A stretch of 64,000 bases of DNA from Eudorina sp. 2006-703-Eu-15 (taxonomy: Eukaryota; Chlorophyta; Chlorophyceae; Chlamydomonadales; Volvocaceae), in assembly GCA_003117195.1 (NCBI GenBank), contig BDSI01000007.1, forward strand, positions 1,550,001-1,614,000, read 5' to 3'. The first letter of the stretch is position 1. Each line of letters begins with the position of its first letter. Both the position numbers and the translations under genes were made by a program. The notes under the pieces were generated by a model. It had not been told where the DNA came from, did no database searches, and was given only the letters and a program-made list of their open reading frames with translations. Shown here piece after piece: positions 11,250 through 57,208 of this stretch.

Positions 11250-12107
11250 ATGAAGGTGTACCTGGTCCTTTTGCTCGTCGCGGCCAGCCCATGCCTGCTG
11301 GCGCGGGCCGCATCTCTGAGGGGACACCGCATGGCGCAGATCGCGCGGGGCGCAGGCAAGTGGACCGCCAGGCCGCGCGCAGGGTATCTTTGGCAATCAA
11401 AGGATGTTGTGACTGACCGTGGCCTCACCCGGCTCTCCTCATCCTGTGCGAGCAGTCTGGCGTCGTGTTCCGTGATACAGCTCGCTGATAATGGCGTCCT
11501 TGTCTAAACAGTCTCAATAGATTGTCACACGATGTGTATGAAGGCAGCAGCGGATCCTGCTTCCTGTACCTGGGCGAAAGGATGTCACTTGCTTGATCGG
11601 CAGCATTGGGGGTTGGGGTGCACCGCCCAGCCAGCCTCGCAGTCCTTCAGCACAGAGATCCCCTGCGCGGTACCGAGGAGCCTTGACCCCTTCCGTGACC
11701 TGCTTTGAGCTCCTGCAGGTGAAGTCACCGGAGACGCAGCAGCAGATGCCGAAGATCCCACGCAGCGGGCGGCAAGGTCGGTCGTCAGGCGCGAGGCAGT
11801 CGCCGTGGGCGTACGACCGCCTCCGCCGCCGTGCTGGATCCGGATCCTGCCAGATCTTCGGATCAACAACATTCCCACTGCATGGATCCCCTGCCCTAAG
11901 CCGCCGCCGCCGCCCAAGAAGCTGCCACCGCCACCGCCGGCCAAGGCCACGCCATACCCGCCGCCGCCGCCGCCGCGCAAACCTCCTCCTCCTCCTCCAA
12001 TGCCGCAGCCACGGCCGTCGCCGCCGCGACCCCGAATAATCAAAGCGCCGCCCTGCAATGAGGTGATCATGCCCAACGGGCAGGTTAGGTATCTTCCTTG
12101 CCCTTAA
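11250..12107 (+). CDS. Secreted proline-rich protein with two Cys-bounded modules (array member 1)
   Basis: A two-exon gene, 11250-11355 and 11719-12107, encoding 164 aa. Exon 1 is a signal peptide (Met-Lys, then a Val/Leu/Ala core, cleavage probably near ARAAS) and ends in phase 1 at CAG|GCAAGT, the classical GC-donor sequence; a GT donor at 11384 would put exon 2 in the wrong frame. Exon 2 has a short acidic/basic linker, PPPPP, then a C-x19-C segment (11832-11894: CWIRIL...AWIPC), about 40 residues of polyproline with Lys/Arg, and a second module CNEVIMPNGQVRYLPC (12054-12101), then Pro-stop. The polyproline suggests a hydroxyproline-rich wall or matrix glycoprotein. The modules match those of the next two genes. 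Function of the family is unknown. Confidence 0.75.
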
Positions 12108-15100
12108 GGGCAGATGGCAGCAGGTGAATTCGCTGTACGGAAATAAAACGCCCATCGCCAGGACTAGATTTGCGATCTATGGGCGGAGGCACCCCGCCCT
12201 GTGCCGACGTCATCACTTTCCAGCAAGCTTCAGCTTTCGTATGATTATTACCCCTACCACGTGCTCAAGCCCGGTGCTCACCACCACCGGAGGACGGTGC
12301 GCCCCTGGGGACTTGGTGGTGCCCCTGCTGGCGACTTTAATCGGGTGCGCACACCTGCAGCTGTTGCACCTGACTAAGCACGATGTTCTTGTTCGTGTAC
12401 GGTAGCCTACTGGTGACATTTCTTCGTAAGAGTATTGTCGGGGATTGCCATTTGCCATGGGTGCCGGTCTGTCGTGGCTCATGGCAGGCCAAGGGCAGCG
12501 TTGCAGTAATGCATCGAAGGACACCTTGCTAGATACGTCGTTATAATGTCGTGGGTTTACGGCCGCGGAGCGCCGAGGATCCAAAAGCAGATGGGCCGTA
12601 GGTGCTTACAGGCCCCAGAGCAAGTATTTACAGGAAGCAGTTTGTACATGTGATCATTTGTGACCGTATTTGCATTAACACGTCTCCAGCTGTATGTCCT
12701 GGTATATCCAACTGGGATTGGCATGCCACAGTCAGCTGTGTGGATGGATCGCTGCCTCCACTTCCCACAAACCACTTTCAAATTTTCAAGTTATCAGGGA
12801 CTCTCCAACTGCGTAGTCGTGTTAGTGATGTCTTTATTTGTCCAATGGGCCCTGCGCGGGCATGTGAGTGTACGTGTAGTGGATTGCTGGTGGTGGGTGT
12901 AGATCGCCTGCAGGTGGTCCATCCGCGTCGTACGGGGGGGAGGGGGATCACGCGCCACCGCCACCCACCGTGCAAGGTCTCAATCGCTCTGCAGAAGGGC
13001 GTGTGAGCGTGGGCTCGTGCAGGCGTGCACTCTGCAACCGCCGCGCGTCGCAGGGCTTGATTGTCCTGCCTGTTACCGTCCAGTAAGATTGGGCGACCGC
13101 TGAAAGCATGCATGCGCGCGGGAAATTATAGGATATACTGCATGAAGTAATTGCGTTTGCCGATCTCCCAGCTGTTGCTAGCACTTGCGCGCGACAGTTG
13201 TGATTGTTGTGATGCAGTACGGTACATGGTAACAATGGATCGCACAAGAGTGCGTGTGTACGACATGTCGTGCGCGAATGGCAGCTTTATTTGTCACGCG
13301 GGGGTTCGGGACCGGGCCGGTGATCCGTAGCGTGGGTTCACTTGAACTTCATTCTTTGCGGCTATGCTATAATAACAATTATGATGCAGTGGACACCGCC
13401 CGCGGCTATGCTTCGCAAGCGATGGCGTGAGACGCATTCATGCGCCTCGGCAACGCTGGCTTCGGTGCGACGGTGCCTCGATGGGCAGCGGTTGAGACCC
13501 CCCCTGGATAGACTCGTCCGAGTTCCGACTGGTAGGTACGTTCTGGTGCCCCTTTAGCTCTGGTGTGGAAGGTGTGAGCTGGCAAAGGCTTCTCGAGATG
13601 CTGGGACAGTGCTTCGAACCGTATTGAGGTGTAGGGCCGTCCAGTCTACAACACGTCAGGGGTTCTCCGCTGTAACATGTACTAGTTATCAATCTCCTGC
13701 GTGCCTCCACCCCATGCTCATCCCATGTGCCATGTAACATCATTAACAATAGTGTCGGCTGCAACATCCTTAATAATCAAGCAAGATGGCGGAACCTATC
13801 TATGACGAACCGACGATGTGCGGCGCGCCTCCGTAAACTCTGTGGGTCGGTCCTCTACAACGTCCGTCTCCCATCCCCGCGCGGCCCCAGCTGATGAGGG
13901 GCGCGGTTGGCGACCGAGTTAGGGGTCAGACCAAAGCGACCGTGCATGACGTGGGATGCCGTACGAACCACAGTTACGCAGCGGGTTAACTTGCTCCGGT
14001 CAATCAGGACTGCTGACTGTCAGTCCTTTCCTGCCGCCGGAATAAACCTGCCGCGGATGGGCGCAAGGCTGTGAGGTTGCTGTCCCGGAGAAATGTGTAC
14101 GGCCGCCGCAGGTCCGTTGGCACCACCGCACACCACCACACCGCACGCACAGCAGCACAGCAGCATTATGCAGCAGCGTATATCCTCACCGATCCTCACC
14201 GCCCCTGCCACCTTAAACCACGCTAGAGTTTGCCCAGCGGATTGTTATTGTTACGGTCGCAGGCGCTCGACGCGCTCCGTCACTGTGCTCTGCTGCACGA
14301 CCGTAGGCGGGGCCGAGAAGGCTCATCAGCGTGCAGCAGTACGCAAAATGGATTACATGTTTACATCGGTGTATTCACAATGGCAGGCAGGGGCACGCAT
14401 TTGGGGCAGGGGCACGCATTTGGAGGTGTCCTGCCGCCATGGCGGTGGGGCCTGCTGGGGCTTGCCCTGGTATACACCGGTGATCCCGTTGGGGTCCGCT
14501 GTAACGTTCATTCATTCATTCATTTGCCAGAGCACGTATTTGCTCGCCGTGAGTGAGTGAAGTTTCCCGACGTACAGACGGCGAACTTCATCGCAGTACC
14601 GTCGGCTCGCTGGGCAGTACAGGTGGTTGCGTTGCGGCGCGGCAGGGCGCGGCCAGCAGTTCATACAAGCAACCTTGCTCATGCAGTAGTGCTTATCAGT
14701 AGGAAACATTACTGAGAGGGCCGGATCTCAATGGCTTCTACATGCAGAGTATTGTGGGGTTGTTGCAGGTTGGAACTATATTTTGGAAGCCTTGGGAACT
14801 AGACTTCCTAATCGAGGCCGTCGCTGTCTGGCAGGACAGACACAGAAGCGATATGATCTTATATATGTGGCACCATTATGTTTAATTTTTTTGTCCCACT
14901 CTGAGGTTGCACCGTGCCTGGGTGCGCATTTGATTACCCTTGGTGCGCATGCTCGTTGTGCGCGCAGTGCACACGTACCAAAATTTCCCGCTCGCCTGTG
15001 CGGACGCACTCTGCAAAGCAAACTAATGATATTACTCCCACCGAAATCAGATCGACATTTGGTTCAAACACACACGCACATCACACGCTGAACGAAATAG

Positions 15101-15375
15101 CAAGCAGTACAGGGCGCGACGACAGGGCGCGACGTGGAGCTGCTGACCCACTTGCTCTTCCGTTCTGCCAACATCCTCTGGGATCCTCAAGGTGCGAAAC
15201 GCGGTAACCACTGTTGAAACGTCTCCGCCGCAAGGGACGAACGAGTAAGACCGCCCAATACAGCCATTCTCCGGAAATACGGCGATCGTGCACCTTGGAA
15301 TCCTGACGCGTCTTCCGTTGCTTGCCGCTCCTGCGGCGTGTCCCCATCTATCCATCCCCACTTCCCCAGGCATAC
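12108..15375. other. Intergenic stretch with repeat remnants
   Basis: No full gene is seen. It contains a proline/Cys fragment reading PPCKVSIALQKGV-stop (about 12979-13006) that resembles the start of a Cys-bounded module, a dispersed-repeat copy at 13571-13660, and a LINE 3'-tail scrap (CAACATCCTTAATAATCA) near 13760-13785. A short direct duplication of GGGGCACGCATTTGG lies near 14390-14420. Confidence 0.4.
13571..13660 (+). repeat. Unclassified dispersed repeat, copy 1
   Basis: This segment shares the core GATGCTGGGACAGTGCTTCG and flanking similarity with 27693-27780 in the same orientation. There is no coding potential and no terminal repeats were found. Confidence 0.55.
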
Positions 15376-17831
15376 ATGAAGTGGCCACAGGTGGGCCATC
15401 GTAGGGCCCCTGGCTTGGTGGGCCTGCTACTCGCGGCGCTCGTGGTCACTGCGACGCGCCAGGGTGTGCGGGCGCGGCGCACTGCAAGCGGGCTGCCTGT
15501 GGGGGTGCAGCATCCCCAGGAGCGGCGGGACGTCGCAGGTAAGCGCCCGATGCGATGCAGCAGCACCCTTGCAGTCAGCAGTGCAGTGTGGCCCTTCCAT
15601 CTGTCAGCTTCAAGCGAAGTACAGTCTTGGAGTGCTGATCAGGAAGCTCACTGGTGCCTCAGGAATCCATCATAGCAGCGGTGTGCACGTACGGCAGCTG
15701 GTACACGTCAGGCGTGCTTGCAAGCCGCCCCCACATTAGTCGCACTGGGTTCGTAGGATCGCGAGTGACACGTCGGACCATCCACACCCTTTGACATCTC
15801 GCTGCGGTCCTATCGCCCTGGCCCGGGCGATCCTCCTGCGGTCCGTGATCCTGGTGCTGGCCCCGGCCCTGGCCCTGCAGGATCCGTCACTAGCACCACA
15901 AAACCACACAGCACCACAAATCCCCAAATGACCCCCGTCCGCTTCGACTTGAAGCCCTGGGACCCAATCGGCCCAACCGACGAGAGCACATTCAGCACTA
16001 CGGAGGCCGACGCAGCAGTGGCGCAGAGGCGCCTCAAGTCGGTGATGCCACCGCCGCCGCCGCGCCCCTGTCGAATCACAATCCTGCGAGGCACCGTGCC
16101 TGTGCTCGTGCCCTGCCCGAGACCGCCGTCGCCACCACCGGCCCCATCATCTCCGCCGCGGTCGCCCAGGCGGCCCAGGCCGTCGCCGGCGCCGTTGCCG
16201 CCGCCTCCCAAGCCGCGACCCACGCCGCCGCCACCGAAGCCACCTCTCAAGCCACGGTACCCGCCGCCCTGTTACCGGGCCGTCATCTATTTTGGTCGAC
16301 TCGTTCGGCGGCCCTGCCATGTGAGTGACGATGCCGGTCTGCCACTGCTGTACGGCATTTATCTGCGGGTTTGACCGTTGGCGCTGTGCGGGGCTGGTGC
16401 GAGGTGTCGCTGTGAGGAGATAGAGGAAAAGGATTGAAAGAGGACCCCGTGCCAGGTACATATATACCGGCGCGCGCTTCGGTGCCAGATGCAAGCTGTT
16501 CTCCATGTTATACCAGCAACTCATTCCGTGCATGTGTACGGCACTTGTACGAAATCTACGCGTCTCGCTGATTACAATTCCACATCGCGCAACTCCATTA
16601 CACGTACCTACACAGCCTAAAATGTGAGCCGTCAACGAGACCGCTGCACCATTTGTCGGTGGCTCGGTTCCGTGTACCTTATGGTTGAACGGTCAACTGT
16701 CAACGGCCAACCGCGTGATCTGGCCCTGTGACCCTTCTGCTGCCGGTCGCCCGGCACTGACCTACTGACCTGGCTCTGACCCACCACGGACAACCGCACG
16801 TGGCCACACTGCCCCCACTGGCCAGCAGCCCCCGCCGCCACCGCAACTGCCACCTTATCCGCCCGGCACGGACTGCTCCTTCACCATCTCACCCGAAGGG
16901 CGTCAAGGTACTTCCCCCTGCCCGGTGAGTGGCTGCTGCTGCTACTGCTACGCCGGCGCCGTGCGTCACAGCAAAGGCCACCATGGGGATTCCTTAGAAT
17001 AAGAATTAAAGGACGCATGTGGATATGGGGGCATGGAGCATGGGGGATGTGCGGAGCCTGACAGAGAACTGGCAACGAAAGCGAGAGGTTGACGCGGCGC
17101 GCGGATGCATGCCGCACGGTACCTGTGTGCTGCGCCTCTCCACCTGACCACCATCCAGATTGAAGGTGCTTTTATTCCGCGATTCGCCTGGAGTTGAATG
17201 TTTTACGGATGCGTACTCACGCCCATCGCTGACGTCGCCGCCAACATGGCTGTGTTACTCCATTCCAGTCAAGAATGGCTGTGTGACTCCATTCCAGTCG
17301 GCCCAATGCTGCCGTCGCATGTTACGCATACTGAAAAGGCGGTCCTGTGCGTGCTTGCGCGCATGTCAGGGTGTCTGAGGAAGCCTCTTCATTCTTGGGA
17401 GGAGGAGCATTGCTGTTCCCATCTTGCCACAAAATTGAGGCAATCAACCACTGACGATGCACCTCCCTCAACCTCATCCACCTTTTCCCGGTCCTCCAAT
17501 CCGCATGCTTGACCGCTGCCCGACGACGCACGGAACGGAACGTCATGCGTGTACGGAACGTGCCATCGTCGCACGCATGCCGCCATCCGTATGGACCTCT
17601 TTATTTCATCAACAACTGGCGGGCCTACGGGCGGAATGGATGACCGGCTTCCTCGCTCGGCGTCGCCGCCTTGTCTACCGTGCGCGTGCCTTCATTCGCC
17701 GTTGATCTATCCACGGCCGTACGAGCGAGCATATGCAGCCGTCCTCACCTCCGCCGCCTCCCTGTTTTGTCACCGCGGGGGGCACATCCATCTCGGTACC
17801 TTGTGACGTCGTACAGGTGCAGGACCCTTAA
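15376..17831 (+). CDS. Secreted proline-rich protein with four Cys-bounded modules (array member 2)
   Basis: Four exons, 15376-15538, 15881-16320, 16829-16924 (or from 16826) and 17739-17831, encode about 263 aa. Exon 1 is a signal peptide (Leu/Ala/Val core after MKWPQVGHRRAPG) ending in phase 1. Exon 2 holds a linker, PPPPPRP, module CRITILRGTVPVLVPC (16069-16116), a long proline-rich spacer, and module CYRAVIYFGRLVRRPC (16270-16317). Exons 3 and 4 begin and end in phase 0, and each encodes a polyproline lead plus one module: CSFTISPEGRQGTSPC (16874-16921) and CFVTAGGTSISVPC (17763-17804). The protein ends DVVQVQDP. Introns use GTGAGT-like donors. Without splicing, exon 2 would instead run to a stop at 16374. 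The modular exons suggest growth by exon duplication. No known domain is recognised. Confidence 0.7.
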
Positions 17832-17970
17832 GAGCCCAGGGGCCTTAGCCGTGCATGTACGTGTGCGGCACCCGGGCGATGGCACACAGGCAGTGTACCA
17901 TGGCCACCCATGCGGGAAGTCATGTGGCGTGTGTCCGTCCCCTCGACCTTGCTTGGGTGTCACTCTCGGA

Positions 17971-18477
17971 CAGTGTTGCTATCTTCCAAAACGGGGAAAT
18001 AGAATTCCGCAGGTTTCCGGCCTGTCGCCAGTAGCCAAAAAACCTTTGGCAGGGCAGATTTTGGGGGGCTTCCTAGGTGCCAGGAAATAAAAACCTCCGA
18101 GGCAGGGTGGAAATATTTCTGCGTGTTTCGACAGCAGGGCCACTGTTACCACAGCGACGACAGGGATTCTAAGTCCATGGAGGCCTGAAGCGCGCTTTCC
18201 TTGCGTCGCGGATGCATATGGGAGGGTAACCAGGAGTTGGGGACACGGCATTCGAGTGTGTTTTGGCGGTAGACAGGTGTACGATGCAGGATTTTCCCCT
18301 GCGCCTGCAGATTTCCAGGCCTTTTTGGTAGTCTGGAAAATAGTTGGCAGGGCAGATTTCCGGCTCTCCACAGCGTCAAATAAATGAAATCTCGCAGGTT
18401 TCTTGGGGGTCCGGGAAATAGAAAATTTCCGGTTTTTTTGCCCGTAAATATTCTTTTTATTTAAGATAGCAACACTG
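17971..18477. mobile_element. Non-autonomous hAT-type DNA transposon (MITE)
   Basis: The 507-bp element has perfect 15-bp terminal inverted repeats, CAGTGTTGCTATCTT at 17971-17985 and its complement at 18463-18477. It is flanked by a perfect 8-bp target-site duplication, CTCTCGGA, at 17963-17970 and 18478-18485. An 8-bp duplication together with CAGTG ends fits the hAT superfamily. There is no transposase. Internal sequence has repeated GGGAAATA/TTTCCGG-like motifs. It sits just downstream of array member 2. Confidence 0.88.
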
Positions 18478-18485
18478 CTCTCGGA

Positions 18486-20420
18486 TACCTTGAAAATATT
18501 AGGTTCGCTTACCATTGCAGACTTGATCGTGTGCCTTTGCGCGATTGGAGACCTTGACCCGCAACTTGATGTTGGCACAGCACCCAACAGCAACAGTTCA
18601 GGCCGATGAATGGGCGCCCAACAGTTCAGGCCGATGAATGGGTGCCGGTAACATAACAGGCCCTATGTTGGCAGGTAGGGGGCAGTTCGTGCACGGCATC
18701 CACATGGAGACTGTGTGCTGTTGCTGGTTCGGCGTTGCCGTAGGTCTGGTGGGTTTGGCGGGATGGCAGCCGACAGTTGGGTATCAAATCTAGGCCCAGG
18801 ATAACGATATTTGCTATTGTGTGAACACGCTGACCAGTACTAGCGTGTAACATGGGATCCTATGGGATCAACTATTGTTTTTACCGCGATACTGCAAACC
18901 TGTACGGCACGGCACGGTGTTTCCCCAACCTGACAACGGCTGTCCTGATAGTAACGCACTGGCGCAGTGGGTCTAAACTCTAAAGATGTGTTGTCAGGCA
19001 ACCGGTCAGCTGCGTGTGATGCGTGGGGTAGTTCGAGACGCATGCCGTGCATGCCTGCTTCCACGTAAATGCATCTGTTCGAAAAAGCAGTGGGCATCTA
19101 CAGCAGCTTGTATGGCTCCTGATACCTTAACAAAAGCAACTGGGAAACTCCAACGAATGCAACGAGCGTGGCCGTGGGGCCCGGCGGCCTGAGCGGCCTG
19201 GTACCACCATGGCGTGGTCGTGATTAGCTGCTGATTCTGGCGAAGGGTATTAATACGTATACATGGCCACTCTTATTTCGTAATCTATGCCCATTGTTAA
19301 TTTTCAATCGATACAACTTTGCATTTCTGTACTTACGCACTCTTGCGGAGGATGAACGCTAGCTTGAGTTAGCGCTAGCTCGTCAAACGTGAGCTCTTTA
19401 CCAGGAGATAGCAGCAGTCGCGACGAGCGGCCTTGATACAGATAAATGCAGTGCCGGGCTCCTGATGTAAGGCTCGGCGCTGCGTTTTCAGCGACACCGG
19501 GCACGATATTACGTTTCGGCAATTTCAAAGCGGCCACATATACAAGGTTATTACGCATGCAGCATCCAAGCGTGAAATTGAATAATATATTCCTTCAGCT
19601 GGGTATGCTGCCCCGGAGGGCATGGATTCCCTTCGCTCGACAGTTTCGACTTCGCAGTGTGCAGCTTCCCAACGGACGCGTAGAACGGGTAAGGCGGTGT
19701 GCCGAACGTGCACCGCCTATTGTTGTAAGCAGAATCTCAGTTTAAATTAAACTATTATTTTATTTCATTTACAATTTAAGTTTCTAGGATTGTGGGTTCT
19801 GCCGCGGAACTGCGGTCGGTGCCCGTAACATTCGTTAGGGAGAAACTTCGGAGGTCGTTGGACGATGCAACCGATGACCCTCACACCACTCTAGTGGAAG
19901 AGGTTCTCTAACTAGAACCTATGTGCAGAATAAGATTTAAGACGTCAAAGTGAACTGTTGTACAGGGACGGGCTATCAGAGCGTTGGAAAGAGTTTATAT
20001 GGCCTGAAGCGGTTTGTAATTGCATCTGACGGAACACTCTGTCTCCTACGTTTATGTTTATTCGGACTTGAGCTTCGGCAAATTTACTGGAACCTAAACG
20101 GTTTGCAAACAGGAAGAACCCTCATCAAATCCTCATCAGCAAATTTTCCGTGTCGTAGCAGCGTCGTCTGGACAACTTGCTGACTTGGAGACAACCGTCA
20201 AAGGTAGGGCCATCATAATCCTTATTTTGAACTGCGGGAACCTCGTCTATCTTTCGCCATCGCCGTTTGCCCCGCCGTCAGCCTGACAGTCGCCCACACT
20301 GGTTCTCACACTTTTCTCCGTCAATCTGACTGTACTTCTCGCAGGCCCACTTCCGTAATGCAAAGCGCAATTAACTTAATTGCTCTATGTTTTAATCCTG
20401 GTGTTGCCAGGGTGACCGTC
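18486..20420. other. Intergenic region between array members 2 and 3
   Basis: No convincing gene. It contains a direct duplication of about 27 bp (CAACAGTTCAGGCCGATGAA core) around 18592-18646 and AT-rich DNA near 19740-19790. Confidence 0.35.
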
Positions 20421-23156
20421 ATGGGGAGGCGGCGAGGCATGGTGCTGCTGTCGCTGGTTCTCTTCTCCATCGCCGCCACCACGCCAGGGCTTTGTAGTGG
20501 AAACCGTCGTGCCGTGCAACTGACGGCTTCAAGTCATGGTAGGTGTTCCAAATCATGCCATGTGCTGCGGTGCGCCTCCAGCGGTGTGGCAGCATTGGTA
20601 GTTCGTTGCCCCGTCAGGGTCCCCAGAAAGTCGGAACGCCTACTTCAGAGCTACAAGCAACCAGGACTCAATAATTTTCGTGTTAATTCTGTCACGCTGG
20701 ATTGCATAAGCGAGCGTGGGCAACAGGGTCTTTTGGCGGAATGCGGGCCTGACGAGACGGACGGAAATCCTGTTCGCTCGGTTCCCGGGCGCTAATATGC
20801 GTGCAATTCCAGGTCTCACTACTTCATGCCAGGTCGCCCTATTCCAGGTCTCGCTGTTGCATGTAAGGGAAAGACGCAGCCACGCACATTTCATGCGCAT
20901 TAGTGCGTCGATTTCTGCCCCGTCGCTCGACCGTGTCAGCCTATCACTCATTGTATGCGGTCGTGACCGCAATTTCAATGACCTTCCGCACGTGCCGTTT
21001 GTTCCTTCTGATGGTGTGGTACGTGCCGTAGGTAAGGAGGACGGTGCCGCGTTAGCGAACGCGAACAACAAGGAAGGTGCCGTTCGCCGCCTCTTGCAAG
21101 ACTATGGCGGCGGCGGCGGCGACTATGGCGGCGGCGGCGGCGGCGACTACGGTGGCGGCGGCGACTACGGTGGCGGCGGCGACTACGGTGGCGGCGGTGG
21201 CGATTACAATGGAGGCGGCACCCCGCCGGACTACGGCGGCGGTGGCGATTACAATGGAGGCGGCACCCCGCCAGACTATGGCGGCGGTGGCGACTACAAT
21301 GGTGGCGGCACCCCGCCAGATTACGGTGGCGGCGACGGTGGCTCTCCCCCAGACTACAAGGACTACGGCGGTGGTGCGCCGCCGGGCGGCGGTGGTCGCG
21401 GCGGCGCGCCGCCATTTGGCAGTGGTGGTGCACCCCCTGCTGGCGATGGCGGCGCTCCCCCTGCCGGCGATGGCGGCGCTCCTCCAGGCAATGTCAACGA
21501 GCCGCCCAACGGCGGAGGCGCACCGCCCAACGAAGGGGGCGCACCGCCCTCTGGGGCCGCCCCTCCGGACTCGGGTGCGCCGCCGTCAGGGGGCGGCCCT
21601 CCGGACTCCAATACGCCACCTTCCGGCGAACCGCCCGGTGATCAGCCTCCATCTCAGGAGCCTCCGACGTCGCAGCCCCCGTCAGAGGAGCCGCCTGCGG
21701 CCGAGCCGCCGAATGAGGGGCCGCCACCGGAAGCTGAGCCGCCGGGCAGGGCACCAAGACCGGGCAAGCATCCGGGCAAGCAGCCGGGCAAGAAGCCGTC
21801 AAAACAGCCAGGCAAGAAGCCGTCAAAGCAGCCCGGCAAGAAACCAGGGTCGGGCTCCCACCCGTCCAAGTCACCAGGCAAGCATCCTGGTTCTCACCCA
21901 GCCAAGCAGCCGTCAAAGCAGCCAGGCAAAAAGCCCAGTCCTCACCCCGCCAAGCAGCCTGGTTCCCACCCCGCCAAGCAGCCTGCCAAGCAGCCTGGTT
22001 CTCATCCCGCCAAGCAGCCTGCCAAGCAGCCTGGTTCTCATCCCGCCAAGCAGCCTGCCAAGCAGCCTGGTTCCCACCCCGCCAAGCAGCCTGCCAAGCA
22101 GCCTGGTTCTCATCCCGCCAAGCAGCCTGCCAAGCAGCCTGGTTCTCATCCCGCCAAGCAGCCTGCTAAGCAGCCCGGTCCCCGCCCCGTCCAACTGCCC
22201 GGCAAGCCCTCCAAGCCGGGTAAACAACCAGCCCGCAAGCTGCCGCCTCAGCCGCCCAAGGCGCACCCCCCACCGAACGGTGGAAAGCAGCATCCCCCGC
22301 CGTCGCCGGCTCCCCCTTCACCCCAGCCTCCGTTTCCCAAGCCCCCTTCTCCGCGTCCCCCTTCACCTCAGCCCCCGTCGCCTCGGCCCCCGTCCCCGCT
22401 GCCACCATCACCGCCGTCGCCCGTACGGATCTCTCCGCCACCGCCTCCTCCACCACGCCCGCCGCCACCGCCTTGCTTCATTAATCTTCCCTTCGGCGAC
22501 AAGCCCGTGAGAATCCCATGTGATTTCCTTGCCCTCAAGGTAAGGCCGGTATGCTGAAGTGCGTGGTTGAGATTGTGCGTGCATGTGTTTGTCCTTGAAA
22601 TGGATGGAGTACATACAAGGGCTACAAGGGGCACCGGGTCTTCTAGTCCACAGGAACGCTGTGCGCTGTCTGTAACAAATACTCATTCATTTAGTGGTTC
22701 GAGCACCATGCGACAGAAGTGCAAGAGGCGAGGCAGGCGCTGTGTATGCAGCAGTCTGCTGCACGCGGTGTGGAGTGTTCGTTGTAGGTGGTGGAGCGAC
22801 CCGAAATGCGTTTGTGTTGCACCTTGAATCGTTGACGGCAAGTCACCGAGTGCATGCCTGACGATGTATGAGCCGGCATGACATCGTTGCCGTTACCATA
22901 ACTAACATAACCGCCATACAAGGTCGGTGCTTCCTCGCCGCGAACTAGGAGGTGCTGTGAACAGGCCTCATGCATGTCAACTGCCGCAACTGTTTCAAAT
23001 CGACCGAACGACAACCATGACCCCCCTCGCTTGGACCCCGAACCGCAGAAACCGCCGTCACCGCCACCGCCTTGCTTCTTCACCATCAACATTGGCGGGC
23101 GGCCAGTCCAAATCCCGTGTCTGACAGCTGGTGGCGTTGGCAACGGTCGCCGGTGA
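20421..23156 (+). CDS. Secreted Tyr/Gly-, Lys/Pro-rich matrix-type protein with two Cys-bounded modules (array member 3)
   Basis: Three exons, 20421-20538, 21032-22539 and 23049-23156, encode 577 aa. Exon 1 is a signal peptide (MGRRRG, then a Leu/Val/Ala core) ending in phase 1. Exon 2 encodes in order: a DYGGGG-type block, three GGDYNGGGTPPDYGG repeats, a Gly-Ala-Pro-Pro region, an acidic EPP region, a basic region of PGKKPSKQ and about six PGSHPAKQPAKQ repeats (36 bp each, roughly 21950-22170), a SPPSP extensin-like stretch, and module CFINLPFGDKPVRIPC (22474-22521). Splicing CTCAAG|GTAAGG in phase 0 joins exon 3: KPPSPPPP, module CFFTINIGGRPVQIPC (23073-23120), a short tail and stop. Unspliced, the frame would stop at 22557. 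It is probably an extracellular-matrix glycoprotein; the Tyr may permit oxidative cross-linking (inference). Confidence 0.8.
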
Positions 23157-34605: not shown

Positions 34606-37600
34606 ATGAAGAGTCTGGGACGCCAACGGGGCTCACTGCTGGCGGTGGGCTTTCTGCTGTACCTCGCTGCCGGCTCACTTTCAGCCTGCTGCGCGGCAGC
34701 GCTCGCGACCTCTCGCAACGAGCTCTTAGAGCATGGAGGCTCAGACGCAAATAACAAGATGCATATGTTGAATGATGAAGGTAAGGACGGCGTGACTGAT
34801 ACTGACTGACGATATGAAAGGTCACGGACACTGCGCCGGAGGGCAAAATCCAAGGAGATGCAACGCGACAAATGCACCCTTTGGCCCCAGCCTCCTAGCC
34901 CCGTCGCCACACGCGGTGCCGAATAGATCAATTGTGCGAGCCGTTGATCACACTGATGACGTTGCCACCGTCATCGGAAGAGGTGGTCCCATGCTTTCCG
35001 GACCTGGTTGGAGAAGTAATACCAAACTCGGGACCATGGGCGGATTTGGGCTGTCGACTCCTGCTAGAGAGAGATTGCTGCACGAACGAAATGCTTTGGA
35101 AACGGTCGGGCAACTGTCGGGCATCACTCATCGAGACGCCCTTGGGACGCTGACTATATGTGTGTTGCAGGTGGAAAGAACGAAGACCAATTAACGAGCC
35201 GAACGATGTTGGAGGAAGAACAAACGAAAGACTATGGCGGCGGCGGTGGCGACTATGGCGGCGGCGGTGGCGACTATGGCGGCGGCGGTGGCGACTATGG
35301 CGGCGGCGGTGGCGACTATGGCGGCGGCGGTGGCGACTATGGCGGCGGCGGTGGCGACTATGGCGGCGGCGGTGGCGACTATGGCGGCGGCGGTGGCGAC
35401 TATGGCGGCGGCGGTGGCGACTATGGCGGCGGCGGTGGCGACTATGGCGGCGGCGGTGGCGACTATGGCGGCGGCGGCGGCGGTGGCGGTGGCGGCGGTA
35501 CCCCTCCAGACTATGGCGGTGGCGGTGGTGACTACGGCAACGGTGGCGGTACCCCTCCAGACTATGGCGGTGGCGGTGGCGACTACGGCAACGGTGGCGG
35601 AGCCCCGCCGACAGGTGGAGGCGGTGGCGACTACGGCAACGGTGGCGGTGCCCCGCCGACAGGTGGAGGCGGTGGCGACTACGGCAACGGTGGCGGCGCT
35701 CCGCCGACAGGTGGAGGCGGTGGCGACTACGGCAACGGTGGCGGCGCTCCGCCGACAGGTGGAGGCGGTGGCGACTACGGCAACGGTGGCGGCGCTCCGC
35801 CCGACGGCGGCAACGGCGGCGCTCCGCCCGACGGCGGCAGCGGCGGCGCTCCGCCGACGGCGGCAGCGGCGGCGCTCCGCCTGACGGCGGCAACGGCGGC
35901 GCCCCTCCCGACGGCGGCAACGGCGGCGCTCCGCCCGACGGCNNNNNNNNNNNNNNNNNNNNNNNNNNNNNNNNNNNNNNNNNNNNNNNNNNNNNNNNNN
36001 NNNNNNNNNNNNNNNNNNNNNNNNNNNNNNNNNNNNNNNNNNNNNNNNNNNNNNNNNNNNNNNNNNNNNNNNNNNNNNNNNNNNNNNNNNNNNNNNNNNN
36101 NNNNNNNNNNNNNNNNNNNNNNNNNNNNNNNNNNNNNNNNNNNNNNNNNNNNNNNNNNNNNNNNNNNNNNNNNNNNNNNNNNNNNNNNNNNNNNNNNNNN
36201 NNNNNNNNNNNNNNNNNNNNNNNNNNNNNNNNNNNNNNNNNNNNNNNNNNNNNNNNNNNNNNNNNNNNNNNNNNNNNNNNNNNNNNNNNNNNNNNNNNNN
36301 NNNNNNNNNNNNNNNNNNNNNNNNNNNNNNNNNNNNNNNNNNNNNNNNNNNNNNNNNNNNNNNNNNNNNNNNNNNNNNNNNNNNNNNNNNNNNNNNNNNN
36401 NNNNNNNNNNNNNNNNNNNNNNNNNNNNNNNNNNNNNNNNNNNNNNNNNNNNNNNNNNNNNNNNNNNNNNNNNNNNNNNNNNNNNNNNNNNNNNNNNNNN
36501 NNNNNNNNNNNNNNNNNNNNNNNNNNNNNNNNNNNNNNNNNNNNNNNNNNNNNNNNNNNNNNNNNNNNNNNNNNNNNNNNNNNNNNNNNNNNNNNNNNNN
36601 NNNNNNNNNNNNNNNNNNNNNNNNNNNNNNNNNNNNNNNNNNNNNNNNNNNNNNNNNNNNNNNNNNNNNNNNNNNNNNNNNNNNNNNNNNNNNNNNNNNN
36701 NNNNNNNNNNNNNNNNNNNNNNNNNNNNNNNNNCTCCTCCGCCCAAGGCCGCCAAGGCTCGCCAAGCTCACGCCCAAGGCCCCTTACCCGCCTCCTCCCA
36801 ACGCCCCTGACCCGCCTCCCCCCAACACTCCCAACCCGCCTCCGCCCAACGCCCCCAACCCGCCCCCGCCCAAGGCTGGAAAAGCTCCTCCGCCCAAGGC
36901 CGCCAAAGCTCCTCCCCCCAACGCTTCCAACCCGCCTCGTCCCAAAGCTCCCAACCCGCCCCTTCCCAACGCCCCCAACCCGCCTCCCCCCGATGCACCC
37001 AAGCCACCGCCACCTAATACTCCCAATCCACCTCCAGCGAAATCGGCCAAGCCTCCGCCTCCCAAGGCCGCCAAAGCTCCTCCCCCTACGGCCGCCAAGT
37101 CGCCGCCACCTATTACACCCAGCCCTCCTCCACCCGGCACCCCAAGCAACCCTTCACCCACATACCCTAGCTCTCCTCCTCCGCCCAAGGCCGCCAAGGC
37201 TCCCCCGCCCAAGGCCGCCAAGCCTGCTCCCCCGCCCAAGGCCGGAAAACCTACTCCGCCCACCACGTCTGCCAACCCTCCTCCCCCGCCCAAGGCCGCC
37301 AAGCCTGCTCCCCCGCCCAAGGCCGGAAAACCTACTCCTCCCACCACGTCTGCCAACCCTCCTCCCCCGCCCAAGGCCGCCAAGCCTGCTCCCCCGCCCA
37401 AGGCCGGAAAGCCTACTCCGCCCACCACGTCTGCCAACCCTCCTCCCCCGCCCAAGGCCGCCAAGCCTGCTCCCCCGCCCAAGGCCGGAAAGCCTACTCC
37501 GCCCACCACGTCTGCCAACCCTCCTCCCCCGCCCAAGGCCGCCAAGCCTGCTCCCCCGCCCAAGGCCGGAAAGCCTACTCCGCCCACCACGTCTGCCAAC

Positions 37601-37629
37601 CCTCCTCCCCCGCCCAAGGCCGCCAGATG
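34606..37629 (+). CDS. Secreted Tyr/Gly- and proline-rich repeat protein (array member 4; contains assembly gap and frameshifts)
   Basis: Exon 1, 34606-34780, is a signal peptide (MKSLGRQRGS, then a Leu/Ala/Val core) ending in phase 1 at GAAG|GTAAGG. Exon 2 starts at 35171 after TTGCAG and runs through the gap to TGA at 37627-37629. It encodes an acidic linker, twelve exact DYGGGGG units (21 bp each, from 35230), DYGNGGG(T/A)PP repeats (48-bp period, 35581-35820), a gap of unknown true length, then PPPPNAPN- and PPPKAAK-type repeats and five near-identical 81-bp units (37219-37623). The reading frame changes near 35855 and again near 36760, next to the gap, so assembly error is likelier than decay. 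It resembles member 3 in architecture, but no Cys-bounded module is visible. Probably an extracellular-matrix protein. Confidence 0.72.
35943..36733. other. Assembly gap (791 N)
   Basis: Run of N inside the repetitive exon of array member 4. Flanking sequence is GC-rich tandem repeat, the likely cause of the gap. Confidence 1.
37219..37623 (+). repeat. Five 81-bp tandem repeats (27 codons each)
   Basis: Coding minisatellite in array member 4. Each unit encodes KPAPPPKAGKPTPPTTSANP followed by PPPKAA. Units start at 37219, 37300, 37381, 37462 and 37543 and differ mainly at one AAA/AAG and one CCG/CCT codon. Confidence 0.9.
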
Positions 37630-38794
37630 ATCTTGACGGCAACGGCTGTGGAATGCAGGTGAGAACACCACAGCTGGGTGGTGGAATGCATCGCTCGGTG
37701 CCCACACCGGCCTGGCTCCCGCCTGCTGGCGTCATGCTCCTAGGCTTACCTCCCGTCCGCTCCGCCCTCTATCTGCCCTTCATTCCTCCCGTCCTTGCGC
37801 TGTAGTGCCGATGCTCTGTTGAGGGAGGGCGCGGCGCAAAGCGCACCACGCAGCGGAGGTACGCGGGAGCACCACCCATCGATCTGGCCCAGCAGATGCG
37901 TGGGCGCATCGATGGCGCTTGGCCCGCCGGGTGTCCCAGCTCCCAGGAGATGCACCCAGCCTGCTGGGCGCGTCGAATGGAGCTTTGCTGCCTCCCAAGG
38001 TGTCCTAATCAGCGGGCTGCCGGCGATACAGTCGGTATGTGGTGCCCCGGCGTGGTGCCATTCGCATGGCGGATTATGGAGGTCCAGGGACCGGGGAGTT
38101 GCGCGGTCAATGGCGGTTGTCGGAAGCTCGGAACGGAGCGAGCTGTCCCGCCGTTAGCCGTGCCGTGTGGCGTCTGCGCTGCGCTGCGCTTGCTGGGCAG
38201 GGAGGTTTCCCTGGACCGTTCCGGCAGAGCGGCTCTGTATGACAGCGGCTGCGGTGCCCTTCCTGCAGCGCCGCCTGGTCAAGCCGTGTGTCGTGGGGTG
38301 CGGCAACCGACGCTATAAGCTTATGAGTAGTTTAGATGCGTACAACTCTCGATGGCATGTTGCAGCGCGCCCGAGGAGTCGATTGGCTCAGGTCCAGCAG
38401 ATAGTAAAGTTTGTGTGACTAAGATTTTATTACGGAGATTGCTGTGTCGGCCTTGCTGGTCGTCTGGGGTTGAGGTTGCGTGGGACCAGGCAGAACCTGA
38501 CAGAGGTTGCGCAGGAAAGGGCAGGCCGCGCGCGTGTGTGATACAGCATCACGATTGACCGAAGGATTGGCATCCTCATCATAGCCCGATCGATGCTTCC
38601 GACGAACTACATATTAGGGAAGAATAACAGCAACAGCGGATGGGCGCCACAGATGGGTGCTACGGATGGATGGATGGGTTCTAGTGCCATTGAGTGCTAA
38701 GCGGCAGCGCACGTGCCGCTTAGCACGCCGCTTAGCACGCCGCTGCGCGTACGTGCGCCGAAAGGATCACGTGTGCGTCGTACATTTTCTGGTG

Positions 38795-52806: not shown

Positions 52807-55800
52807 TATTATTAGGATGTTACAGCGGACCCCGCGGGTCATCGGTGACAGCCCCGGTGACAGCCGAGGCTTCCTCACCATACACTGCCTAAATGAACTA
52901 ACGCCACCATGGCGCTCCGGACAGGCTCCCCAAGTGCACCGAAACACTCCCCGGGCCCACACTACCAGGGAACCACCCCGTTCCTGAGAACCAACCATGG
53001 CAAGGGATAAAGCCCGCTCAGGGGGAGTTAGCCACCATGGCGCCCCTATTAGCGAACCACCACCCCCACCAAGGCGGGGTTACTTCTCCAGCGGTGGCCC
53101 GTAGTCTTGGAAGGCCACGGGGGCTCGCGAGTCACCATTCAGGGGCCTGCCCGTACGGTCCCACCGGGCCGAAAAAACTGCCCACACCTAGCGATAGCTC
53201 CACTGGGCGTCAGTGCCCTGACCACCCGCGGTCTATTACGACAGAGTACCTACAGGGCTTAAGAATCCTGGCCTGACGGAACCGGGCCTCGGCACACAAG
53301 ACGACCGTCCTGCACTTTCAGGATCGGGTGTGTAGTCCCCACCGCTGACCACCCTTTCACTGGGACTCCCAGCTCAGCGAAGTCGTAGAGCCGGCTCCAA
53401 AAGTCTGCCACTGCCCGCCGGGCGGCTAGCCCTTCAGCGTCCCCTAAGGACCCCGGGATCCCGCCCGCGTTCCTGGACCTGTCGGCCCTCAGGGCTCGCC
53501 GGCCCGTTTCCATGGCACTGGTTGCCGCCAAGACGACAACGTCCCAGACACACTGTTGCACACCCACGGGGGGCGTTGCGAGCCACACCTGCTGCCTTTG
53601 AAGGCTCACCCCTAGCCTTGCCTCGATCTGTGCGACAACCGCTTGTGCCACCCCACAGCCCCAAAAATGGTGTTGCCTGGGTGTTGGCCGTATCGCCCCG
53701 GCGCCGGGGTACGTCCCGCATCCACAAGGGGCCACCGCCGCCCCCCTCATGTGGGAGTTACCAAGCATTGGGATGCCATCAACCGCCAGTCGCCAATACG
53801 CCTCCTTATTGGAGTTTTCCCACTTGGTCTCCGTCCACATCCGCTGCATGTTCTCTATTACCTTGGAAACCATCCTCGACACTTCTGGCGCAGTATCCTC
53901 TACCCCAAGCGCTTCGCAAACAAAGCGTGTGTGCGCCGCACGCCTCGCCTCCCCCAGGCTTTGCAGCTGCAGTGTCGTGCCATACCGCACGGTGTACTCG
54001 TGGAGTGCCACCTTGAGGCCGTTTTGCAGCCTCCACCCCATGCGCCTCACCAGCATTTCCGTGACTTCCTCTCTCCCTGGGGTGGTCGCCTCGGTGGGCC
54101 CCAGGGACCCCTCGGCGGCTTCCCACCACCCTGGTGGGATGTCTTGTCGGAGCGCTTCTAGGGCCGCCTCACACTCCCTCCACCGGTCCCACTCCTGCCA
54201 CCCGTCGGCTCCTACCCCCAAGCATTCCCTAACAAACATTGCCCATCCCCGGCGACGCTGGCGCTGTGTGCGGGCGGTCGGGGGTTCGCGTCCAAGTTCC
54301 TCTCCCATCCGTCCGTCGTGTCCCGGAGCCGGGATATCACTCGAACCGCATGCCCAATGGTCCTCAGCGACAGGCATTTGGCAAGGGCGGCATGCCTATG
54401 TTCGAGCCCCGGTCGCTCGCCTAGTTGCAGCCCGTGTGGTAATAGCGGGTTGCCCCACAGCGGTGCATTCCAGCACCAGCCCCCTGGGGTCAGGGGCTCC
54501 GCCTCAACATCGATCACGGGCGGGAGGGCACTCAGTGCCCTTGCTATCCGATTCACTCCCTCCGGTAGTCCGGGGCAGTCCAGCCATGGTCCTGCATGGG
54601 GCGCCGTCAAGGCCATAATGGGTTCGAAGCCCGGTATCGCTCCACGTAGGAACTCAAGCAGAATTCGCCGCCACGGGGCGTCTGCCCCGCCCTTGGGTCC
54701 CTGGACGAAGCGGACCGCCCACCCGGCCCATCTGGCCCGCGCGTGCTCCAGCAGGGGTAGGGCCCCAAACCCTCCTCCCGTCGGGTGCCCTGCCAACAGC
54801 GATTTGGGAACCCCTGTTGCCCTCCGTTCTGTGTCGTCGGGGCCGAGTCCTCTATCGATTAAGCGAGCCGCCAACTTCTCCCAGGCCACACTCTCTCTCT
54901 GGGGCGGTAATCCGCCGTGCTCCATGTGCCACGTCACTCGCTGCAGTCCATATGCTGCCGCTGATGATGCCCTCCCGAATATCGACAGGGATAGCCGCGA
55001 TAGCGCCTGAAGGCGCTCTTTCACCTTGTCCCCGTGCGCCCTCCAGTCCAGTTCAGCGTCCCTTCCCAGGTTCGTGAAAGGGAGGTTAAGCGCAGTGGCG
55101 CGGTGAACAATCCTCAACCCCGCGACGTCCTGACCCTCGCCCAACGCGACTGTGCCCGACTCGTCCGCCGCCCCTACAACCAGAAGCTCCACCTTGTCGA
55201 GATTGAGCTGTTGCCCCGACGCCTTCGCGTATGTGTCCATATATTCCAGGAATGGAGCCACGGCCTGGGTGTTCTCCAGCACTACTTCCGTATCATCCGC
55301 AAATTGCACCGCCGTTGTGAGCTCGCTATCCTGCGGTCCTAACTTGATCCCTACCCCGCATTGCTGCAGCCAGCAAAGCAGCGCCTGTGCTGCAAACAGA
55401 TATAGCAGTGGTGCTAACGGGCACCCCTGCCTGACTCCCGCCGTCATGGGGACTAGCTCCGACTTGTACCCATTCACCACTGCTCTCGCCGCTGTCTCCG
55501 ACAGGATGGTACGGGTCCACTTCATCAGCCCTTCCCCGGCCCCCATCGCGTCCATGCACCCCATGAGGAAGGGCCGGTCTAGAGTATCGTACGCTTTCGC
55601 GATGTCCAGGAAGGCTATGCAGCCTGATCGGCCCTGCTGTGCCAGCAGGTGGGGCAGGTACCGCAGAAACAGCACATTTGCGCCTATCAGTCTCCCCGGG
55701 AGAAACGCCGACTGTTCCAGGGTGACCACCTTGCCTAGGGCTGGGCCCAGGCGGTTGGCTAGCACCTTCGCTAGAATGCGATAGTCCGTGCACAGCAGTG

Positions 55801-56500
55801 TAATCGGCCGATAGCTACCTGGCAGGTACCGATGCCCCCGATTCTTGTACAGAATGGTGATGATCCCGTCAAGGAACCCGTCCGGCGTTCGCCCTAGGGT
55901 TCCAATGGCCGTGTACAGATTCGCCAACACGTCTGCAAACTTCGCCCGGTATCCCTTATACAGCTCGCCCGGGATACCGTCCCATCCTGGCGATTTTCCC
56001 GGGCGCAGCGTTTTCAAGACACTTCCTACCTCCGTGGCGGACACCTCCATCGAGCCGATGTCTGCTGCTTGGTCCTCCGGTATCCTTAGGTTTCGGTGCC
56101 GCAGGGCCTGCAGCACTTGCTCCCTATCCTCCGCTGTCACATTCGCCGGGGATTGGCAAATCGTCCCCCAGTAGTCCGCGACCACTTGTGGCAGTTTCTT
56201 CGCAGTCGTAACCAAGTTCCCGTGCTTGTCCCTAAGCCCAGCTACCACGTTCTGCGCCTGGGGTGGCTTGACCAGGGCCGTCAGGGCTCGGTTCGGCCGT
56301 TCCCCTTCCCGTAGCCATTGCACCCGCAGCCGACGCCGGATGTCGTCCCCTTCCTCTCTAAGAGCGGCCCGTACCTCCGTCTGCGCTTCCACCATTTCTT
56401 GAATCGACGCGGGGTCGCCGGGTGCCTCGGCGGCCTTCAGTTCTGCTTGCTCCGCTCGCTCGATGGCAGTCCGGCTCCGAGCCCCCGGTCGTACACGCGC
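52807..56500 (-). mobile_element. L1-type LINE, 5'-truncated
   Basis: From the 5' side (right) it has the RT region, the C-terminal domain, a 3' UTR of about 450 bp and a tail CGCTGTAACATCCTAATAATAA. The endonuclease domain and 5' UTR are missing; the 5' boundary is approximate. Its 3' end recurs in fragments near 13.8, 23.6, 26.7, 28.6, 31.0, 39.7, 47.9 and 60.8 kb. Confidence 0.88.
53259..56468 (-). pseudogene. LINE reverse transcriptase ORF, one frameshift
   Basis: The first frame (to 54212) covers the RT. Counted from the Met at 56395, it has GKSPGWDGIPGELYK (about 133-147), YRPITLL (195-201), LDIAKAYDTLDR (263-274, motif A), AGVRQGCPLAPLL (319-331, motif B), FADD (365-368, motif C) and NLDK. 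All catalytic Asp are present. Near 54300 the frame shifts; the second frame carries the C-terminal region with an HHFWGC metal-binding-like cluster and stops at 53259. The order RT then zinc-finger-like C-terminus fits L1-type non-LTR elements. Not active because of 5' truncation and the frameshift. Confidence 0.88.
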
Positions 56501-57208
56501 ATGTCTGGCGTGCGTGAGGGACTATGGCTTGCGTGGATCTGGGACCTGGCCAGTGAGGTCAGGGATGCCGTTGCATCCACCCAGAGATTTGCATATGGGT
56601 TCCGATATGCAATTGACTGCAGGCGATTGCGCGCATGCAATGCGAGTAGCGGTATCTCTAGATGCAAATTGAATTGAATGGGTTACAGAGGTAGCGCAGT
56701 AGTCGGGGACCGGCAGTGCGCGCCTGAGGGCCTGGTGGACAAAACCCGCATCCAAATTGTGCATGCACTCCTTACGGCCTAACGTGCTCGATGGATGGCA
56801 TCGTACATGGCCTTTTTGTTACATCGGAAGGTCTTGAATCGACTTACGGTCAAGGTAGGGCCGACCGCAATGAAATGCTTTAAAAAAATCAAACACGCCA
56901 CTCCGCGACCCTGTGCTGCAAGCACGACTCGCACCTCCGCCTCACCACGCGCGCAGCTACAACCTGAGATATCCCAAGCAAGCGAAAAACGCGTGTGTCG
57001 AAATCAGTCGCGCGGAGTCCAGTCACAACCCTATCCGGGATTACAGCCTCACTCCAGCCTCACCTTGGGGTAACACAGCACCGAAAACCATCGCTCCACT
57101 CGACCGACTGGCTAGCCCGTCACGACGCTCCAGGACGTTCCCCAATCTGGCTCAGCAAACGACGCTCTCTCAGCGACAGATATCAGGACCGCGCGTGGGA
57201 GAGTTGCT
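56501..57208. other. Intergenic region between the LINE and the tRNA-binding gene
   Basis: Probably the 3' UTR of the gene at 57209-59353; a TGTAA motif on the minus strand sits at about 56822-56818. Nothing else is recognised. Confidence 0.4.

Follow-up and report, generated by a model that had tools for sequence, protein, structure and literature searches.

Short two-cysteine modules, predicted to fold as hairpins, in a candidate family of predicted secreted proline-rich proteins from a volvocine genome

A 64 kb stretch of the Eudorina sp. 2006-703-Eu-15 genome (contig C7:1550001-1614000, hereafter the window) contains three neighbouring predicted genes, A, B and C, all on the + strand, that carry eight short Cys-bounded segments in frame. 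We interpret these genes as members of an undescribed family of predicted secreted proline-rich matrix proteins, in which predicted hairpins likely serve as docking or cross-linking nodes between rods, and we place the probability of this reading at a little under one half (about 0.48). The hairpin fold, the signal peptides and the splice sites are predicted, and we infer that the Cys pair closes each hairpin. The family has further members on other contigs of the same genome, designated C51, C81, C106 and so on, and the family genes found there are named after their contigs.

The modules and their paralogues

A sequence-only reading of the window had listed eight segments in three adjacent genes, and all eight were located in predicted + strand genes. 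Six are exact C-x14-C strings, namely modules A2 (12054..12101), B1 (16069..16116), B2 (16270..16317), B3 (16874..16921), C1 (22474..22521) and C2 (23073..23120). The other two, also as proposed, are the C-x19-C module A1 (11832..11894) and the C-x12-C module B4 (17763..17804). Pro directly precedes the last Cys in 8/8 segments, and Gly stands at residue 8 or 9 in 6/6 of the x14 segments when the first Cys is numbered 1. The polyproline lead ascribed to the segments is present before most of them but is weak at 12054 (RIIKAPP) and 16874 (PPYPPGTD).

The suggestion that these are members of a real gene family was borne out by searches of the genome itself (181 Mb in 3033 contigs). Four further genes, out of reach of the sequence-only reading, were found on three other contigs: C51 with five modules, C81 with four, and a tandem pair on C106 (C106a and C106b) with two each. 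This brings the total to at least 21 modules (20 distinct) in at least seven genes, both lower bounds since just the best-ranking candidates are scored by the search, and all seven joined models are open. With module C2 as the query, C51 was matched at an expect value (E) of 1.1e-6 and again at 0.1, C81 at 1.1e-3 and 0.03, one C106 gene at 1.1e-3 and the second at 0.93; one non-family place, on C199, was also drawn at E 0.27. The reversed C2 peptide, used as a control, returned a single place (C167, E 0.17). The penultimate module of the second C106 gene matches its neighbour's module at E 4e-12 and, on this similarity, the gene is a clear tandem copy of that neighbour.

Module sequences follow the core pattern C-x-Φ-x-Φ-...-Φ-x-Φ-P-C, where Φ is hydrophobic, often with a Gly-Gly-Arg turn. 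In the 15 x14 modules, position 4 is always I, V, L or M and Pro-14 is always present; Gly-7 and Gly-8 each occur in 10/15, Arg-9 in 9/15, and a hydrophobic residue in 13/15 at position 11 and in 13/15 at position 13. Across the 20 distinct modules, a hydrophobic residue is found at +4 in 20/20, at -2 and at -4 in 18/20 each, and at +2 in 15/20, and Pro precedes the last Cys in every one. The five distinct modules that are not x14 (x10 to x19) retain the spacing from both ends.

These positions can be divided between two faces if a two-residue turn is assumed at 7-8, with positions 2, 4, 6, 9, 11 and 13 on face one and 1, 3, 5, 10 and 12 on face two. Hydrophobic residues occupy 64/90 positions on face one vs 30/75 on face two, and prolines other than Pro-14 number 2 on face one vs 11 on face two. 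Judged by the aligned residues, the hydrophobic residues and the prolines thus occupy the sides predicted for them by a 2:2 β-hairpin. In two-stranded hairpin geometry, second-face positions have no inward hydrogen bond, and because the prolines cluster on that face, they stand mostly at hairpin-tolerated positions. AlphaFold2 predicted a hairpin for two of the three modules modelled (C2 and B2), with strands at module positions 1-6 and 9-14 and a two-residue turn. The C2 model, made with the eight aligned window modules, has a mean predicted local distance difference test score (pLDDT) of 75.6, rising to 90 over residues 11-20. The B2 model, from a single sequence, has strands at model residues 82-87 and 90-95 with a block pLDDT of 89-90. 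A fold search of the PDB with the 35-residue model gave a best E of 1.9, and for so short a model a miss means little; the module profile against PDB sequences gave a best E of 7.3.

Pattern counts were compared with a control set of 28 loci (97 kb), comprising 18 unrelated loci (63 kb) and 10 pherophorin loci (34 kb). A lax pattern, defined as 3 Pro in the 8 preceding residues, C-x11-20-C with Pro before the last Cys, and a hydrophobic residue at +4 and at -2 or -4, occurs 7 times in the window vs 6 times in the controls (5 unrelated, 1 pherophorin). Since it is just slightly commoner in the window, this pattern alone proves little. The strict pattern, PP-C-x13-P-C, occurs 4 times in the window vs once in the same control loci. 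Residue shuffles reached gene B's four modules in 0/2000 trials and gene A's two in 27/2000; gene C scores 3 under an x13-Pro-Cys rule, reached in 0/5000 shuffles, one of the three being the stretch between its modules. Chance alone was rejected as an explanation because the module recurs in the paralogues and no strong match came from the reversed query, and we regard paralogy, as read from these sequence matches, as the decisive evidence over pattern counts.

Queries with internal modules of B and C51 returned mainly self-matches; in addition, gene B was drawn by a C81 module at E 0.10, and a second C51 module was matched at 0.15. Module A1 found itself and a place on C58 at E 1.9. A 92-residue stretch of gene B found itself and seven weak places (E 0.007-0.84); when these seven were scanned, no family-type module was present, and one non-conforming C-x10-C was seen in L005. 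The weak places on C199, C13, C4, C136, C58 and C117 (E 0.17-1.9) were dropped as members. A scan of the four loci L015, L023, L040 and L041 (on C199, C13, C4 and C136, respectively) found no family-type module, and single segments in L023 and L040 do pass the lax pattern. The places on C58, C117, C167, C20, C10 and C198 were examined by pattern count alone.

Gene models and block architecture

All gene models were built from splice signals and reading frame. Signal peptides were judged by eye, with hydropathy in addition for C51 and C106a. Gene A (164 amino acids) is predicted to have two exons: exon 1 (11250..11355) would encode a signal peptide and ends in phase 1 at a GC donor, and exon 2 (11719..12107) carries modules A1 and A2 on a Pro-rich rod, followed by the stop. 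Gene B (264 amino acids) begins with an exon that would encode a signal peptide and has a phase-1 end (15376..15538), followed by exon 2 with modules B1 and B2 and a phase-0 end (15881..16320), exon 3 with module B3 in phase 0-0 (16826..16924), and exon 4 with module B4 and the stop (17739..17831), so that two phase-0 module exons stand consecutively. B3 combines its weak lead with an atypical second strand. Within intron 2 of gene B, at 16673-16729 (+), we also observed a further Cys-bounded segment, C-x17-C, that has NG at its turn, hydrophobic residues at +2, +4, -2 and -4, and Pro before the last Cys; it has no proline lead and is perhaps a lost or unrecognised module exon.

Gene C is the longest of the three (577 amino acids). 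Its exon 1 (20421..20538) is again a predicted signal-peptide exon with a phase-1 end, exon 2 (21032..22539) holds an acidic Gly/Tyr block, a Lys/Pro block, a Pro rod and module C1, and exon 3 (23049..23156) holds module C2, the C-terminus GNGRR (23142-23153) and the stop. Apart from the GC donor in gene A, all introns of the three genes are GT-AG. With borders placed by eye, the acidic Gly/Tyr-rich block spans 220 amino acids (21097..21756) with 29 acidic (D+E) and 3 basic (K+R) residues, 13 Tyr and 79 Gly. The Lys/Pro block that follows spans 170 amino acids (21757..22266) and has no acidic residues, 37 K+R and 12 His. Genes A and B consist of rod and modules without either block.

The sequence-only reading was silent on these oppositely charged blocks, as it was on a dibasic site and a Gly-type C-terminus in gene C. 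With borders again placed by eye, the four long genes C, C51, C81 and C106b share one block order, from the acidic Gly/Tyr block through the Lys/Pro block to the proline rod with modules. In that order of genes, the Gly/Tyr blocks hold 29, 33, 18 and 23 D+E and 3, 1, 0 and 0 K+R, and the Lys/Pro blocks hold zero acidic residues and 37, 13, 15 and 24 K+R. C106a has the same block order, with a Gly block richer in Asp and poorer in Tyr. Within the C106 pair (L018, C106:38000-47900), the penultimate module is identical and the Gly blocks differ, DYGGGG repeats vs FGGDGGDGG. In the splice models, 7/7 genes open with a putative signal-peptide exon and then a phase-1 intron, and the last module occupies its own exon behind a phase-0 intron in 6/7; the splice acceptor of the last C81 exon is weak.

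Elsewhere in the window, a long open frame at 54215-56521 (-) has a reverse transcriptase domain (PF00078, E 1.3e-28) and is likely a retroelement; this was the sole match when 20 further open frames from the window were scanned against Pfam. At 34928-37806, both strands have long open frames in several reading frames, and this stretch, with a low GC content (0.44) and a strong GC skew (-0.40) at 36-38 kb, is probably repeat sequence.

Selection signs and rival explanations

In eight modules with a Gly-Gly-Arg (GGR-type) turn, the pooled proportion of synonymous differences (pS) was 0.54 vs 0.32 for non-synonymous differences (pN), and pN exceeded pS in 2/28 pairs. For the C106 pair, the ratio of non-synonymous to synonymous substitution rates (Ka/Ks) was 0.41 in the acidic part, 0.38 in the Lys/Pro part and 0.56 in the C-terminal parts together. 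It was 0.20 for the N-terminal part plus the Gly block, an unreliable figure from a repeat alignment, and 0.19 at the end of exon 2, where 2 synonymous changes and 1 non-synonymous change are too few to judge. The introns of the pair are 52% identical over 328 aligned bases.

A number of observations weigh against the matrix-protein interpretation or the evidence offered for it. Choosing the GGR-type modules by protein similarity tilts the comparison towards pS over pN. The last exons of the C106 pair differ by 4 synonymous and 8 non-synonymous changes, a Ka/Ks of 0.70 that is not evidence of constraint, and the GC content at third codon positions of exons (0.66-0.72) is just modestly above intron GC (0.55-0.59). 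A query with the N-terminal motif of C106b found itself and C81 (E 0.08), not C51 nor its tandem neighbour C106a; it also drew places on C20, C10 and C198. Modules B3, A2 and B2 depart from parts of the pattern, and 20,000-fold shuffles for the consensus and face comparisons gave 0, 0 and 48 at or above the observed values, counts that take related modules to be independent and should not be read as probabilities. The closed β-hairpin proposed from the sequence alone fits the residue pattern and two of the three modelled modules but not B1, which was modelled together with B2 and was drawn as coil with low confidence (block pLDDT 59-60). In the hairpin register considered here, the Cys pair would also lie at a hydrogen-bonded site, which is less usual for cross-strand disulphides. 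Homology searches of 5.8 billion proteins returned none at E <=10 either for gene B (7987 candidates, swamped by proline words) or for the masked C81 protein (2381 candidates). That database does hold at least some volvocine proteins, because a pherophorin control query found six proteins of Volvox reticuliferus and V. africanus at 53-67% identity. There are thus hints, at the level of sequence, that the family may be lineage-restricted.

The last group of such observations concerns processing. In four of the seven genes (C, C51, C106a and C106b), the exon junction that separates the last two modules carries a dibasic KK or RK; in gene C it is formed by the Lys codon at 22537..22539 and the first codon of exon 3 (23049-23051), between C1 and C2. 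Three of these four genes also have Gly-type C-termini, GNGRR in gene C and Gly in both C106 genes. Both signs are therefore present in 3/7 genes (C, C106a and C106b), the dibasic site alone in C51, and neither in A, B and C81. Taken together, a dibasic site and Gly-type ends would fit a peptide precursor at least as well as a matrix scaffold. On that explanation, a convertase cuts the dibasic site and frees the C-terminal hairpin as an amidated signal or antimicrobial peptide; the cut would release a short one-hairpin tail with an end fit for amidation, since Gly or Gly-Arg-Arg is the form that the amidating enzyme needs. The module is similar to single-disulphide hairpin peptides, arenicin among them. 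Published work, including passages of PMC6313938, describes an amidating enzyme (PAM) in Chlamydomonas and the cleavage of pherophorins in the mating secretome of this alga. However, no dibasic site separates the last two modules of A, B or C81, and the C-termini of A, B, C51 and C81 are neither Gly nor Gly-basic. Dibasic pairs are also common in these Lys/Arg-rich proteins, even within modules (B2, C81), and the internal modules of C51 and C81 are not delimited by any such rule. We consider the precursor explanation unlikely for the family; it stands as the foremost rival, or alternatively describes an additional role that certain members may have.

A different possibility is that the segments are spacers, with cysteines that pair across chains or with those of an adjacent module, in which case the intervening sequence need not fold. 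The variable inter-Cys length (x10 to x19 in 5/20 distinct modules) would suit this, and the stretches between the last two modules are themselves Cys-bounded with Pro before Cys, which would allow other pairings. The strong positional pattern between the cysteines, the placement of Pro mostly at hairpin-compatible positions and the AlphaFold2 hairpin models all argue the other way, and this explanation appears quite improbable. That the window members are decaying or unexpressed matrix-gene copies that do nothing would account for the missing Gly/Tyr and Lys/Pro blocks of A and B, the GC donor that A requires, the atypical B3 and the Ka/Ks of 0.70 between the final exons of the two C106 genes, but is very unlikely given seven open frames, a common splice design and module-level similarity across four contigs.

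Proposed role and comparison with known systems

Under the preferred interpretation as matrix proteins, the prolines would carry the hydroxylation and glycosylation seen in other wall proteins of algae, by analogy with the MST1 mastigoneme protein of Chlamydomonas, whose proline-rich region is described in passages of a Cell 2024 report as a hydroxylated, glycosylated polyproline II helix (PMC11015965). The proline rods would space the hairpins apart within the cell wall or matrix, and the exposed hydrophobic face of each hairpin could pair with a matrix partner or a second hairpin. As for the long members, their basic Lys/Pro block may bind acidic matrix sugars and their Gly/Tyr block may provide an elastic or tyrosine-cross-linked segment. 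More broadly, and more doubtfully, the volvocine lineage may have invented a minimal disulphide-closed hairpin domain of 16 residues, spread it along rods by phase-0 exon duplication and joined it to oppositely charged blocks as a matrix glue outside the pherophorin system, with some C-terminal hairpins cut loose and amidated as signals; we offer this fuller scenario as a tentative one.

The volvocine matrix is a standard model for the origin of multicellularity and is usually discussed via pherophorins and metalloproteinases. If true, the present reading would add a new part to this matrix, namely a second modular family of proline-rod proteins that carries a two-Cys unit. The unit of about 16 residues is small enough for direct synthesis and for tests of folding, disulphide closure and pairing, and the dibasic sites and Gly ends of three members make a link from matrix to signal testable. 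A literature search combining volvocine and beta-hairpin terms found nothing. A description of the module was likewise absent from the titles and abstracts covered and from the passages of PMC11015965, PMC6313938 and PMC6704257, a scope that leaves outside a 2007 study of short-repeat modules in Chlamydomonas wall proteins.

With a predicted signal peptide and long Pro-rich stretches, as expected of hydroxyproline-rich glycoproteins, the family falls within the broad class of wall proteins that are proline-rich and probably hydroxyproline-rich. At least 166 matches to the pherophorin domain (counted exon by exon, not as genes) were obtained in this genome, which indicates that this lineage builds proline-rod matrices. 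Like pherophorins (PF12499/DUF3707), genes A, B and C encode proteins, predicted to be secreted, in which Cys-bearing units are attached to long rods rich in proline. Unlike them, A, B and C have no PF12499 match, in agreement with the sequence-only reading, and the unit has two Cys in about 16 residues, whereas the pherophorin model spans 148 positions; a further addition is the pair of Gly/Tyr and Lys/Pro blocks. That reading had recognised no named domain in the module, and the Pfam search agreed: it matched no family to the module, so membership of pherophorins or of any other Pfam family was rejected. No family at all was returned for gene A or gene B, and for gene C the sole line was a sub-threshold YxzE match (E 0.022) in its Gly-rich part.

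MST1 likewise has a Cys-bearing region followed by a proline-rich region, but in the passages of PMC11015965 the former is one large growth-factor-receptor-type domain with 26 disulphides, in contrast to the repeated two-Cys units found here. The precursors of amidated peptides in Chlamydomonas, likened here by their published description, resemble gene C and the C106 pair in predicted secretion, the dibasic site and the Gly-type C-terminus, and differ from the family as a whole in that 4/7 genes lack such a C-terminus. Arenicin-type peptides are free animal antimicrobials in which one disulphide closes a β-hairpin. The modules would match them as one-disulphide hairpins of similar length, if their own cysteines pair as we infer, and unlike those free peptides they sit inside proline-rich proteins.

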